In this document: piece after piece, positions 12,785-20,174 of the stretch
Layout: every line of letters starts with the position of its first letter
How positions within the stretch are numbered: position 1 is the stretch's first letter
NCBI GenBank assembly: GCA_017306865.1
Contig: JAFKHH010000016.1
Location: 372,001-436,000 of the forward strand
DNA: 64,000 bases
Direction: 5' to 3'
Origin: Filimonas sp.
Lineage (GTDB): Bacteria; Bacteroidota; Bacteroidia; Chitinophagales; Chitinophagaceae
Program-made: the position numbers and the translations under genes
Notes under the pieces: model-generated
Seen by the model: only the letters and a program-made list of their open reading frames with translations
What the model was told of the DNA's origin: nothing
Databases searched by the model: none

Positions 12785-15100
12785 ATGCCTTTCTGTCGTA
12801 GATGGTCCATTTTCCTATGCTTTTGCCTTGTTTTGGCAACTAAGCAATCTTATGGCCAGATTTCATTGACTGCTACGACCAATGCGGACAGCCTTGTCAG
12901 AAAAATTGCAGGTGCAGGAATTACCATATCCAACGCAAAATATAAAGGTGGAACATACTCCGCAGGCATTTTCAAAAACACGAATACCCTGCTATTATTG
13001 GATTCGGGCATTGCACTTACTACGGGTTATGTTGTTGCCCAGCCCGGCGGTAACGGCATTGCAGGACCTGCATCGCTGAATGCGATCAATAAACTAGGCT
13101 TACCCGGCGACGAAGATTTAAAAAACTATAGCGGAGACTCAAACCTGATTACAAGGGATGCCTGCTCACTTGAGTTTGACTTTATTCCCCAGGGTGACTC
13201 AATTTCAGTTAGTTATGTATTTGCGTCCGAAGAATACCCGATGTATAATTGTGGCAATTACAACGATATTTTTGCCTTTCTTATTTCCGGGCCGGGATAC
13301 GCCAAAGCAACAAATATTGCCCTAATACCAGGTTCCAACCTACCGGTATCTATTAATACGATCAATGATGGCACGACTTCTAATGGGAATTTGTTGTCCA
13401 AATGCCAGGAAGCAGGCCCTGGCTCACCATTCACGCAGTATTATGTGAACAACAGCACCAGCCTATATATAATATATAATGGTATGACTGTTACACTAAC
13501 TGCCAAAGCCAAAGTAACGCCTTGTGCTACATACCATATAAAACTGGCCATTGCCGATGTGCTGGACGACAACTATGATAGTGGGGTGTTCATTGCTGCA
13601 AATAGCTTTAAATCGCAGGTTGTACAACTGAGCACTCAAAGTGGCCTGTTTGATTCAGCAGCCAATAAGCGCTTAATGGTGGAAGGTTGCAGTGGTACGC
13701 AGTTACGGTTATCAAGAGCTAAGGATGCCTCGTACTCTCCCTCTACTGTTAAACTTGTGTATAAAGGTACGGCCACTTATGGTATAGATTATAATAGCGC
13801 TCCCCAGATTGTTCAGTTTGCAACCGGCGACACACTAAAGACAATAGATCTTTTCCCTGTAGCAGACAACATCCGTGAAGGGGATGAGACGGTAAACATC
13901 TTTGCATCAACGTCTAACTGCACGAACGATTTTTCCGACAGCATTACTATCATCATAAAGGACAGCATTGCTTATAGCAATACTTACAATGTACCCCTTT
14001 GCTCTGCATTTGCCGCTAAACTAAGCGCACAGGTAAACGATACTACCAGCAACAAGTACACCTGGAGCACGGGCCAGCAGACAAAAGACATCTTTGTAAC
14101 CAAGCCTGGCACATATACAGCAATACATGAGTTTGCCAGCAATTGTTTTAACCTGGACACCTTCTATGTGGCTAAAGGCGATCCTGTTATTCATCTTGGA
14201 AACGATACAACCATTTGTAACCGCGACAGCCTGGTGCTGGACAGCCATAGCCTTGGAAATACTATACTATGGAGTGACGGCAGTCAAGGCCAACAATTGA
14301 TTATAAAGAATGCAGGCAAATACTGGGTACAGGTTACCACACCTGCCGGCTGTTATGCTGCGGATACAATGTCCTTATCTATAAAAACATTGCCGATCGT
14401 AGACCTTGGCAGGGATACTTCACTTTGTTCGTATGAGCGGATCCTGTTAAACGCATACTATCCCGGTGCTACATATCAATGGAGTAATGGCAGCACTGAA
14501 TACCAGATAAATGTGCCGGCTGTTGCCAATATGTACAAAGTAGCAGTATCGCTAAGTGGCTGCGTCTTTCATGATTCCATATTTGTAGGCGCGAAAAAAA
14601 TGCCGGTTGCAGATGCCGGTCCGGATGTCTATATCCAACGTGGCGGCTCTGCGAAATTAACGGCTGCGCCAGGGCCGCAGAATGACATCTTTAAATGGAC
14701 CCCATCATTGTATTTAAGCAATGCTGATATAGCCAATCCTTATGCGACAGTACCTTCTGATTATACTTACCTGTTAACCGTAACATCTAAAGAAGGTTGC
14801 TTCGCCAGCGATCAGGTAAATGTGTTTGTAAAAGATGGGTTACATATCCCGAATTCATTTTCACCAAATGGCGATGGTATTAATGATACCTGGCGGGTGC
14901 CATTGCTTAATTCTATCGTGAAAGCACGGGTTAGTATTTATGACCGCAATGGGCAAACGGTGTTTTCTTCAAATGGTTATGATGTGGAATGGGATGGCAC
15001 TTTGCACAATAAGCCGTTGCCGATCGGCACTTACTATTATGTAATAGAGCCAAATAATGGTCTGCCATTGATGAAAGGCTGGATTCAGTTGGTACGATAA
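12785..15100 (+). CDS. T9SS type B cargo with choice-of-anchor L domain
   Basis: 771 residues. A signal peptide (1-24, ending YGQ) is followed by a choice-of-anchor L domain (about 25-280), with the motifs SNAKYKGG, GIALTTG, EFDFIPQGDSISVSYVFASE and YNDIFAFLISGPG. The middle holds a Calx-beta-like stretch (GIDYNSAPQIVQFATGDT) and Ig-like repeats with LGNDTTIC and LGRDTSLC starts. From residue 687 there is a type B gliding-motility C-terminal domain: IPNSFSPNGDGINDTW, then IYDRNGQTVF, GTLHNKPLPIGTYYY and a closing strand. This domain directs export and surface attachment or release by the type IX system. It sits inverted between porG and uppS. Likely an adhesin or surface structural protein; ligand unknown. 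Confidence 0.85.
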   Translation: MPFCRRWSIFLCFCLVLATKQSYGQISLTATTNADSLVRKIAGAGITISNAKYKGGTYSAGIFKNTNTLLLLDSGIALTTGYVVAQPGGNGIAGPASLNAINKLGLPGDEDLKNYSGDSNLITRDACSLEFDFIPQGDSISVSYVFASEEYPMYNCGNYNDIFAFLISGPGYAKATNIALIPGSNLPVSINTINDGTTSNGNLLSKCQEAGPGSPFTQYYVNNSTSLYIIYNGMTVTLTAKAKVTPCATYHIKLAIADVLDDNYDSGVFIAANSFKSQVVQLSTQSGLFDSAANKRLMVEGCSGTQLRLSRAKDASYSPSTVKLVYKGTATYGIDYNSAPQIVQFATGDTLKTIDLFPVADNIREGDETVNIFASTSNCTNDFSDSITIIIKDSIAYSNTYNVPLCSAFAAKLSAQVNDTTSNKYTWSTGQQTKDIFVTKPGTYTAIHEFASNCFNLDTFYVAKGDPVIHLGNDTTICNRDSLVLDSHSLGNTILWSDGSQGQQLIIKNAGKYWVQVTTPAGCYAADTMSLSIKTLPIVDLGRDTSLCSYERILLNAYYPGATYQWSNGSTEYQINVPAVANMYKVAVSLSGCVFHDSIFVGAKKMPVADAGPDVYIQRGGSAKLTAAPGPQNDIFKWTPSLYLSNADIANPYATVPSDYTYLLTVTSKEGCFASDQVNVFVKDGLHIPNSFSPNGDGINDTWRVPLLNSIVKARVSIYDRNGQTVFSSNGYDVEWDGTLHNKPLPIGTYYYVIEPNNGLPLMKGWIQLVR

Positions 15101-17189: not shown

Positions 17190-20174
17190 ATGAAACGATT
17201 CATGTCCGTACTATATGTTATGGTTATAATAAGTGCATGCAGTATGCCAAAAGCAAAGGCTCAGATGCCAGAAATAAAAACCGACGGACAATCATCTGGT
17301 AAGGTGTATCTGCAAAAATTAGCTGTAGATGTAAGAATAACAGGAGCCGTGGCTACAACTACATGGACAATGACTTTTAAAAACACGACGTCAAAAATAT
17401 TGGAAGGTGAACTTACATTTCCTTTAGCTGATGGTATCACAGTATCCAGGTATGCATTAGATATAAATGGTAAAATGCGAGAGGCTGTTCCGGTGGAGAA
17501 AGCAAAAGCTACACAAGTGTTTGAAGCAATAGAAAGAAGGCAAGTTGATCCGGGTTTGCTGGAAAAGATAGACGGCAATAGTTTTCGTACGCGCATTTAC
17601 CCTATCAACCCAAACAGTACGAGAACAGTTACTATTGCGTACGATGAAACACTTCGCCTTACAGGCAATACGTCTTTAGTGTACCGGTTACCATTTGCAT
17701 TTGAAAGGCCCATTGAATTGTTTGACATCAACATTTCTGTTTTGCAAAACACGGTGAAACCTGTTTTTGAAGAAAACCTTGACAATGAACTTTCTTTTAA
17801 AGAATGGGAAAACAACTACACCGCATCGCAAACTTTCAAAAACTATGTAGCGGATAAGCCTGTTGCAATTCAAATTCCAAAGCAATATGATAAGACGGAG
17901 GTATTGATGCAGCATGTGGGTAATCATTATGTATTCCTCGCGAATGCTTTTGTGAAAGATATATCAAGAGAAAAGGTTTTGCCAAGTACAATCACTGTTT
18001 TATGGGATGCCTCACTAAGCGGTATTTATCGTGATACAAAAAAAGAAATCCGTTTACTGGAAGAATACCTGAAAAAAGTGAATAATGTGAAAGTAACGCT
18101 GGTAACATTCAGCAATACTATTCTTGCCAGCAAAGAATATGTGATTACAAATGGAGTAACCAGTGAGCTGAAAGCTGCATTGCAAAATGTGGTATATGAT
18201 GGCGGTACCCAATTGGGTGTTTTAGACTTGAAGAAATGGCCTGCAGATGAATACTTATTATTCAGCGATGGGCATTCTACTTATAACAAGGCTGACATCT
18301 CATTTGCAAATGCACCGGTACATGCGATCAACTCATCTGCAAAAGCTGATTACCCTTCGTTGCATTTTATAACACAAAAAAGTGGCGGCACTTTTATCAA
18401 TCTTATTAATACTGAAATAGCAGCAGCTAAAAAATTATTGCTTTACCAATCATTGCAATTCCTGGGAGTAAAGGCGAATAATAACATAGAGGAAACTTTC
18501 CCCGCCTTGCCAACTCCTGTATCCGGCAGCGTTGCTGTTACAGGTTTTTCTTATGAGCCTAAACAGGAAATTGTTTTACTGTTTGGCTATGGTAATAAGG
18601 TTATTTCTGAGCAGCGTGTATCCCTCAATTTTGATAAACAACAAACCGACAAAGTTGATTTATCCAAAATATGGGCGCAACAAAAAATTGGAGAGTTGGA
18701 TATTCAATATGATGCGAATAAATCGACAATAGAGCAACTGGGAAAACGATATGGCATCATAACAAGAAACACTTCATTAATGGTACTGGAAAATGTGGCT
18801 GATTATGTACAGTATGAGATAGAGCCACCAGTAGAATTGAGAGACGAATATGATCGCCTGATCAAGCAACGCAGCGAGCAAAGGCAGAACCGTGTAAATA
18901 CGTCTCTGAACAATGCAGAACACTTCTTTAATGAGTTGCTGAAATGGTGGAATATGGATATACAATACCAGGTACGGAAAAAAGTACAGGCAGATTCTAT
19001 AGCTTCATTACAAAGAAATGTTGCAGGCAATGCTAGTCGCTCGCGAACAACTACTCCAGCACCCCACCCTAATCTACGCAGAACGGATGCAGCCGCAACG
19101 ATGAATGCAGCACCGGTAGCATCTGAGTTGAGGTTAGATGAAGTGGTTATAACCGGGTTTTCGAAAGCAAAGAAAACACAATCTACAAGATTTACACCGC
19201 CAGCAATTGCTGCCGATGCAGAAATGAAAGGAGAAGATGAGGATGAAACGCCAATCGGTTCATTCACCATAAAAGCACAAGCGGGTGATAGTAATTATCT
19301 GAATGCAATCAGGAAGGAAGTTCCGGCGAAACAATATGAAAAGTATTTATCCATACGAGATAAATACAAAGATATTCCGGTCTTCTATTTCACTGTTGCC
19401 AATTATTTCTTTGGTAAGGGTGAGAAAGAAATCGCACTACGCATACTGTCCAATATTGCAGAGTTGGATGCAGAGAATTATGAATTATACAAACTGCTTG
19501 GTTATAAGCTAAAGGAGATAAAGGAATTTGAACCAGCAGCTTTCGCTTTCAGAAAAGTATTGGAATGGCGGCCAATGGATCCGCAAAGCTATCGTGACTA
19601 TGCGCTTGCGCTCGAAGATGCCGGTAAATATCAACAGGCGTTGGATACTTTATACGTGGCTATTACTAACAATTACGCAGAGAATATCAGCAATATGTAT
19701 TACGGCATTGAGGAAACAATATTGCCGGAAATAAACAGGCTGATTGCTTTATATGGCGATAGGCTAAACATTACCCGCATTCCTAAAAAAATAATACAGG
19801 CAATGCCGGTTGATATACGCGTGGTACTGAACTGGAATATGAATGATACGGATATTGATCTGTGGGTGACTGACCCGAACGATGAGAAGTGTTACTACAG
19901 CTACAAGTCAACTGTAATGGGCGGCAGAATATCTACTGATTTCACGCGCGGCTTTGGCCCTGAGCAGTTTTTATTGCGTAAGGCGATGAAAGGAAAGTAT
20001 AAAGTAGAGATCAATTATTATGGTGATCGTCAGTTAAAAATAGCAGGGCCTACAACTGTAATGGCAGAGGTATTCACGCGTTATGGTACTGCTAACGAAA
20101 AAAGACAGATCATCACCTTACAAATGAAGAAGGATGCGAAAGGTGGTGTACTGATTGGTGAATTTGATTTTTAG
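17190..20174 (+). CDS. VIT-VWA-TPR-DUF2135 surface or periplasmic protein with TonB-box-like segment
   Basis: 994 residues. The N-terminal signal could be a lipoprotein signal (lipobox ISAC, Cys17) or be cut after KAKA. Domains in order: VIT (about 28-155); a von Willebrand A domain with an apparently complete MIDAS (DASLS at 273-277, Thr340, Asp360); and a low-complexity linker (about 620-690) holding RLDEVVITGFSK at 648-659, which resembles SusC-type TonB boxes. Then come TPR-like helices (about 720-850) and a C-terminal DUF2135 domain starting near WNMNDTDIDLWVTDPN. VIT/VWA proteins bind ligands through a metal ion; DUF2135 is of unknown role. It is monocistronic, with terminators downstream. 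Function unknown; an interaction scaffold at the envelope is inference. Confidence 0.8.
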   Translation: MKRFMSVLYVMVIISACSMPKAKAQMPEIKTDGQSSGKVYLQKLAVDVRITGAVATTTWTMTFKNTTSKILEGELTFPLADGITVSRYALDINGKMREAVPVEKAKATQVFEAIERRQVDPGLLEKIDGNSFRTRIYPINPNSTRTVTIAYDETLRLTGNTSLVYRLPFAFERPIELFDINISVLQNTVKPVFEENLDNELSFKEWENNYTASQTFKNYVADKPVAIQIPKQYDKTEVLMQHVGNHYVFLANAFVKDISREKVLPSTITVLWDASLSGIYRDTKKEIRLLEEYLKKVNNVKVTLVTFSNTILASKEYVITNGVTSELKAALQNVVYDGGTQLGVLDLKKWPADEYLLFSDGHSTYNKADISFANAPVHAINSSAKADYPSLHFITQKSGGTFINLINTEIAAAKKLLLYQSLQFLGVKANNNIEETFPALPTPVSGSVAVTGFSYEPKQEIVLLFGYGNKVISEQRVSLNFDKQQTDKVDLSKIWAQQKIGELDIQYDANKSTIEQLGKRYGIITRNTSLMVLENVADYVQYEIEPPVELRDEYDRLIKQRSEQRQNRVNTSLNNAEHFFNELLKWWNMDIQYQVRKKVQADSIASLQRNVAGNASRSRTTTPAPHPNLRRTDAAATMNAAPVASELRLDEVVITGFSKAKKTQSTRFTPPAIAADAEMKGEDEDETPIGSFTIKAQAGDSNYLNAIRKEVPAKQYEKYLSIRDKYKDIPVFYFTVANYFFGKGEKEIALRILSNIAELDAENYELYKLLGYKLKEIKEFEPAAFAFRKVLEWRPMDPQSYRDYALALEDAGKYQQALDTLYVAITNNYAENISNMYYGIEETILPEINRLIALYGDRLNITRIPKKIIQAMPVDIRVVLNWNMNDTDIDLWVTDPNDEKCYYSYKSTVMGGRISTDFTRGFGPEQFLLRKAMKGKYKVEINYYGDRQLKIAGPTTVMAEVFTRYGTANEKRQIITLQMKKDAKGGVLIGEFDF

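Follow-up and report, generated by a model that had tools for sequence, protein, structure and literature searches.

A TonB box of receptor origin in the linker of a predicted periplasmic VIT/VWA-like/DUF2135 protein of Filimonas sp., a putative client of the Ton motor

Background

The familiar work of the Ton motor is to pull on the plugs of outer-membrane receptors. TonB boxes in non-receptor proteins are familiar from colicins and related bacteriocins, which are imported toxins and not resident proteins of the host. A 994-residue protein of Filimonas sp. raises the question of what a receptor-type TonB box may be doing in a resident protein that is not a receptor. Its gene (positions 17190..20174, forward strand, ATG start) lies in a stretch of 64,000 nucleotides from contig JAFKHH010000016.1 (GenBank assembly GCA_017306865.1, positions 372,001 to 436,000), which is referred to here as the window. 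A preliminary description, made from the sequence alone, had assigned to this protein a VIT domain, a VWA domain, TPR-like helices and DUF2135, with the motif LDEVVITGF in the linker, and had proposed the motif as a docking site for TonB or for a receptor partner.

Results and discussion

Domain architecture and predicted fold

The VIT and DUF2135 domains named in the preliminary description give clear Pfam matches. The VIT domain occupies residues 41-151 (17310..17642; PF08487, E 4.4e-26) and DUF2135 residues 932-979 (19983..20126; PF09906, E 9.6e-18, 64.5 bits against a cut-off of 22), the latter as part of a C-terminal beta domain of about residues 874-993 in an AlphaFold model that was built from a 35-row alignment of homologs. 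The TPR-like helices (residues 702-858; 19293..19763) are likewise present in the model, and the Pfam TPR matches are weak, every one of them falling under its cut-off. The VWA domain held as a fold and not as a direct family match: Pfam gave no VWA match to the protein at E≤1, and the assignment was made because a homolog, L050, matches VWA_2 (E 1.8e-5, 25.7 bits, under the cut-off of 27) and because of the model, in which the fold spans about residues 266-420 (17985..18449, limits set by eye). The five MIDAS residues, D273, S275, S277, T340 and D360, are all in place as first described, and each of these columns is conserved in at least 90% of the rows of the 35-member homolog alignment. As modelled, the protein has a VWA-like fold with a MIDAS, a putative site of metal binding.

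The mean pLDDT of the model is 83.5. Values under 50 occur in residues 16-24, within the signal region, and in residues 598-690 (18981..19259), a predicted disordered linker that corresponds to the slot in which homologs carry additional modules. LDEVVITGF (residues 649-657; 19134..19160) falls inside this second stretch. The best PDB match of the model was 6fpy, heavy chain 1 of the human blood protein inter-alpha-inhibitor (E 5.2e-21, rmsd 7.6, TM-score 0.53 when normalised by target length), which shares the VIT domain and the VWA-like fold; the TPR-like helices and DUF2135 are extra in the window protein. Assignment to the XrtN, MSEP-CTERM or marine sortase-target VIT proteins was rejected, the scores lying far under the NCBIfam cut-offs (TIGR04477, 41.1 against 250 bits; TIGR04286, 39.2 against 150; TIGR03788, 60 against 551.65).

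A signal peptide was recognised by eye at residues 1-25 (17190..17264), with cleavage near the AKA-Q junction, and the predicted location of the protein is periplasmic. The lipobox-like ISAC in this signal peptide is found in the window protein alone among 35 homologs. A lipoprotein reading was set aside on this count of 1 in 35; for the window protein itself it is possible.

The linker motif as a TonB box

The motif is present in the linker where the preliminary description had placed it. Its DEVVITG differs by one residue from the DEVVVTG (residues 82-88) described as the Ton box of Bt1763, a SusC protein of Bacteroides thetaiotaomicron, in which deletion of 81-VDEVVV-86 or its replacement by alanine caused a growth defect on levan and in which the Ton box lacks ordered structure when the extension domain is isolated (PMC7782687). 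A profile of 16 columns, made from the TonB boxes of 24 receptors in this genome, gave the window box 17.5 bits. When the linker was shuffled 20,000 times, no shuffle reached this score (best 13.4 bits), and the best control among 365 non-linker chunks of homologs scored 5.7 bits. The DNA pattern coding for [LF]-[ND]-[ED]-V-[VIM]-[VIM]-[TVIMA]-G was searched through the whole 6.15-Mb genome and gave 17 matches, against none for a control pattern; 16 of them stand 14-26 nt before a PF07715 plug, and the 17th is the window motif, which has no plug after it. A chance resemblance in a low-complexity linker, which the shortness of the motif might suggest, is ruled out by the shuffles, by this placement of the genomic matches directly before plugs and by the full modules that homologs hold in the same place, and we give it practically no weight.

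The protein that carries the box gave no PF07715 plug at E≤1, no match at E<0.05 to a plug profile of our own (134 positions, from 18 receptors of the window's genome) and no Pfam beta-barrel family at E≤1. Membership in the TonB-dependent receptor family was ruled out on the lack of a plug or barrel family. SusC-type transporters are built from an extension (PF13715), a TonB box, a plug (PF07715) and a barrel (PF00593). The window protein shares the box with them, and its homologs share the extension and the plug; in contrast to the transporters, the window protein lacks the plug and the barrel family, and its box is internal, between two folded halves.

Receptor modules in homologs

Full-length homologs were drawn from relatives, from the phylum, families and order, and from genome contigs; of 395 genomes sampled across the phylum, 32 contained a match at E≤1e-60. 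The 994-residue protein was matched by 79 ORF rows, of which 71 span the linker and 57 remained after removal of repeats. Searching for the motif across VIT/VWA/DUF2135 homologs had been proposed as a check, and the outcome was divided. With a threshold of 5.74 bits, the maximum of the 365 control chunks, the box was found in the same linker in 32 of the 57 homologs, two of them over the threshold narrowly (L043 and L110, 5.8 and 5.9 against 5.74). The remaining 25 lie below it, including L055 and L091, which are box-like by eye, and conservation of the box across the whole family would by this score be too strong a claim.

The plug profile matched 31 of the 57 linkers at E<0.05 and none of 171 controls. 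Nine homologs have a near-complete plug covering 101-123 of the 134 profile positions, and 11 have the SusC-type N-terminal extension, which was counted only above 20 bits since two of the 171 controls match it weakly (8.2 and 6.3 bits). No module of any kind was found in 16 of the 57, by labels that we assigned ourselves, and degenerate relics of modules are seen in L091, L044 and L045. Within the 35-member set, Pfam at E≤0.01 detected DUF2135 in 33 members, CarbopepD_reg_2 in 10, Plug in 7 and TonB_C in 1; no barrel family was among the 25 listed. A contig fragment from a genome of the same family carries a TonB box and a plug (45.8 bits) directly before its TPR/DUF2135 part. The plug pieces of L108 (25.1 bits), L122 and L051 (22.5 and 18.2 bits, both under the cut-off of 23.9) seem, when read by eye, to come from another receptor lineage. 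These domain matches show that the VIT/VWA/DUF2135 family has received receptor modules, namely the extension, the box and the plug, in its linker. Because homologs carry these modules at the same place, the box of the window protein is, on this comparison, a TonB box by descent.

The homologs with a receptor extension and a near-complete plug could be taken to mean that the protein mimics a receptor and uses the module to enter or help a barrel, through plug exchange or as an assembly aid. We regard this as very improbable, given that the window protein has no detectable plug and that in the model of a plug-bearing homolog, L096, no more than a small part of the plug is predicted to fold (residues about 697-750), with residues 595-696 under a pLDDT of 50.

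Modules in other protein families

The window's genome contains 113 plug matches. Forty of these places, mostly with short frames, were fetched, and ten were scanned against Pfam, of which seven have a barrel family and three do not. A 542-residue M56 (BlaR1-type) membrane protein (L159:1997-3622; contig C32, about 152.7-154.3 kb) joins a plug to a TonB C-terminal domain within a single chain, with no box by profile (-0.7 bits); the genome has three more M56 proteins, and no plug match falls on any of them. A DUF4140/DUF4139 protein (L165:2145-3980; contig C1, about 1,024-1,026 kb) has a TonB box and a plug inserted within DUF4139; read by eye, a motif resembling the start of a plug precedes its box instead of following it. 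An MG2 protein (L171:906-3695; contig C3, about 248.8-251.6 kb) has a plug near its C-terminus at 18.3 bits, below the cut-off. The earlier statement that a non-receptor protein offers no obvious place for the motif was too strong, as this genome has related modules in further proteins that are not receptors. Among the literature matches listed, covering titles and the starts of abstracts, none concerned box or plug modules in VIT, DUF4139, M56 or MG2 proteins, which is weak evidence of absence with few subscription journals covered.

The DUF4139 family was found at 39 places in 59 relatives and the genome itself, and 30 of these proteins were examined. The box is present in 13, the plug in 10, and the box without a plug in six, as judged with the threshold from the VIT control set, which one protein (L183) exceeded narrowly at 6.1 bits; by eye, the DUF4139 boxes stand in quite different surroundings. 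By profile score, a box without a detectable plug is present in two unrelated families, VIT/VWA/DUF2135 and DUF4139.

TonB C-terminal domains (TonB_C) were found at eight places in the window's genome, one of them below the cut-off. One belongs to the plug-bearing M56 protein described above. Two proteins of 249 and 247 residues, with starts that look secreted by eye, end in TonB_C-like domains, one of these under its curated cut-off; their oppositely oriented genes lie beside a second DUF4139-type gene, which is a weak match (L226:1696-4928, contig C29). The VIT/VWA/TPR/DUF2135 homolog L050 (L050:1-3141) holds a TonB_C domain in the linker slot of the box (25.1 bits, just over the curated cut-off of 24.6), where it replaces box and plug. 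These places would fit an arrangement in which the box docks on other periplasmic TonB_C proteins and not on the motor TonB, as part of an adaptor network without force. We think this rather improbable; the box resembles those of receptors, and for these the motor TonB is the established partner.

Selection on the box and its history

Selection was measured in two related clades of other genera, the set containing no relative from the window's own genus. In a ten-member clade (g75), for which the plug profile finds short pieces or nothing, pairwise identity is 75% over the nine residues of the box, 74% and 80% in the folded parts and 28% in the rest of the linker. The corresponding pN is 0.177 for the box, 0.163 and 0.122 for the folded parts and 0.473 for the rest of the linker core, with a pS of 0.72-0.77 throughout; leaving out L091, which has a degenerate box, gives a box pN of 0.130. 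A four-member clade (g66) gives much the same picture, with a pN of 0.178 for the box, 0.172 and 0.099 for the folded parts and 0.450 for the rest of the linker core, at a pS of 0.58-0.76. The box has the lowest pN of 78 sufficiently filled nine-codon stretches of the linker core in g75 (all ten rows) and is the slowest of 93 in g66, ranks that are not independent tests in that the stretches overlap and the rows are related. By this codon comparison the box is held by purifying selection in the two clades while the surrounding linker drifts. Taken with the receptor modules that homologs carry at the same place, this selection makes a docking role plausible, and the reading first proposed is partly supported; against it, the box is missing by score from 25 of the 57 homologs.

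A quick tree of the 57 homologs, made with the linker left out and containing several long branches, places the window row in a starred set with L108, L037, L038 and L096. L108 carries the extension, the box and a partial plug, and the other three carry the box and a near-complete plug; L029, again with extension, box and partial plug, stands next to this set. The placement and full plug of L118, on a very long branch, were given little weight. Since the nearest rows have the box with a whole or partial plug, the window protein probably descends from a form with both, from which the plug was lost and the box kept. This direction is what the tree most simply suggests, which is short of proof.

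The main rival explanation starts from the same material and treats the box as a neutral relic. A linker tolerant of insertions would receive receptor pieces by recombination, these would then decay, and the window box would be a remnant. Donors are ample, as the 113 plug matches in the genome are presumably mostly receptors. The modules are patchy, with at least eight changes of box state and at least 11 of any module on the tree, counts that are blind to gain versus loss; shrunken and degenerate pieces are common, and homologs without a box or without any module are numerous (25 and 16 of the 57). Against decay stands the rate of the box, which in two clades is the slowest nine-codon stretch of the linker core and close to that of the folded parts, at synonymous differences that are large in both. 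It also speaks against a relic that a box without a detectable plug recurs in DUF4139 proteins, and that the sole other linker insert recognised, the TonB_C domain of L050, again belongs to the Ton system. We judge this explanation unlikely, while giving it more credence than any other rival.

Proposed role and comparison with known systems

The reading that we favour, and on balance consider somewhat probable, is that the window protein is a soluble periplasmic relative of the inter-alpha-inhibitor heavy chains with a receptor-derived box in its linker and a putative client of TonB. The TonB C-terminal domain would bind the box by adding it as a beta-strand, as it does with receptors. More speculatively, engagement of the linker box by the Ton motor might then strain or release one of the folded halves, or pull the whole protein, off an envelope partner held by the VIT/VWA half or by the TPR/DUF2135 half, force and partner both being guesses. 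The protein may be an accessory to TonB-dependent transport, as first suggested, and it is equally possible that the Ton motor acts on the protein itself. In the papers cited here an internal box between two folded halves is without tested precedent, receptor boxes preceding an anchored plug.

The mechanism proposed is modelled on TolA, which would correspond to TonB in acting at the disordered end of soluble TolB and freeing Pal. According to PMC8928145, TolA binds this end of TolB by strand addition, in the manner of a receptor box and TonB, and force is proposed to release TolB from Pal. TolB as described there is, like the window protein, soluble and periplasmic, with a disordered peptide for strand addition to a motor-driven transducer, a binding that is putative for the window protein. 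The two differ in that the window protein has other folds, an internal peptide of TonB type and not TolA type, and no known Pal-like partner. No propeller or TolB family of Pfam matched it at E≤1, and no TolB was among the best 50 PDB matches listed.

PorE and inner-membrane vWA force transducers are envelope proteins proposed to be coupled to Ton- or Tol-like motors (PMC12204202). PorE has a CP (extension-like) domain; unlike the window protein, it is a lipoprotein and contains TolB, CpoB and Pal folds. Membrane tethering sets the vWA transducers apart from the window protein as well, and the accessible text of that report mentions a TonB box for neither. The same text reports that tol-pal (TolA-TolB) loci are not identifiable in Bacteroidota.

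A broader proposal, which we put forward tentatively and as a possibility short of probable, is that in Bacteroidota the Ton motor acts on resident proteins of the periplasm as well as on receptors, with receptor boxes in two or more unrelated families (among them VIT/VWA/DUF2135 and DUF4139) and plugs in others (M56 and perhaps MG2), as a Ton-based counterpart of TolA-TolB. Should selection indeed preserve receptor-derived boxes in soluble envelope proteins, the Ton motor would have additional clients, and Tol-like work in a phylum that lacks identifiable tol-pal loci may be done by way of Ton.

Gene neighbourhood

The surroundings of the gene were compared at 24 loci from 15 genera, over about 6 kb on each side as far as the contig permitted and over less for L026-L028. 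The clusters obtained comprised the VIT gene (15 genera), three sets of short ORFs that overlap the VIT gene (3-4 genera) and a few true neighbours, these being histidine kinases in three genera and an MscS channel and a GntR/aminotransferase regulator in two each. No true neighbour was common to more than three genera, and a dedicated operon with transporter or Ton genes was not found at these loci. Because the shared neighbours are few and belong to common families, they give no link to a particular transporter, and a role of the protein with any one transporter is not supported. Elsewhere in the window, a 771-residue protein (12785-15100, forward strand) has the C-terminal stretch IPNSFSPNGDGINDTW..., an ending that we take to be typical of gliding/type IX secretion substrates.
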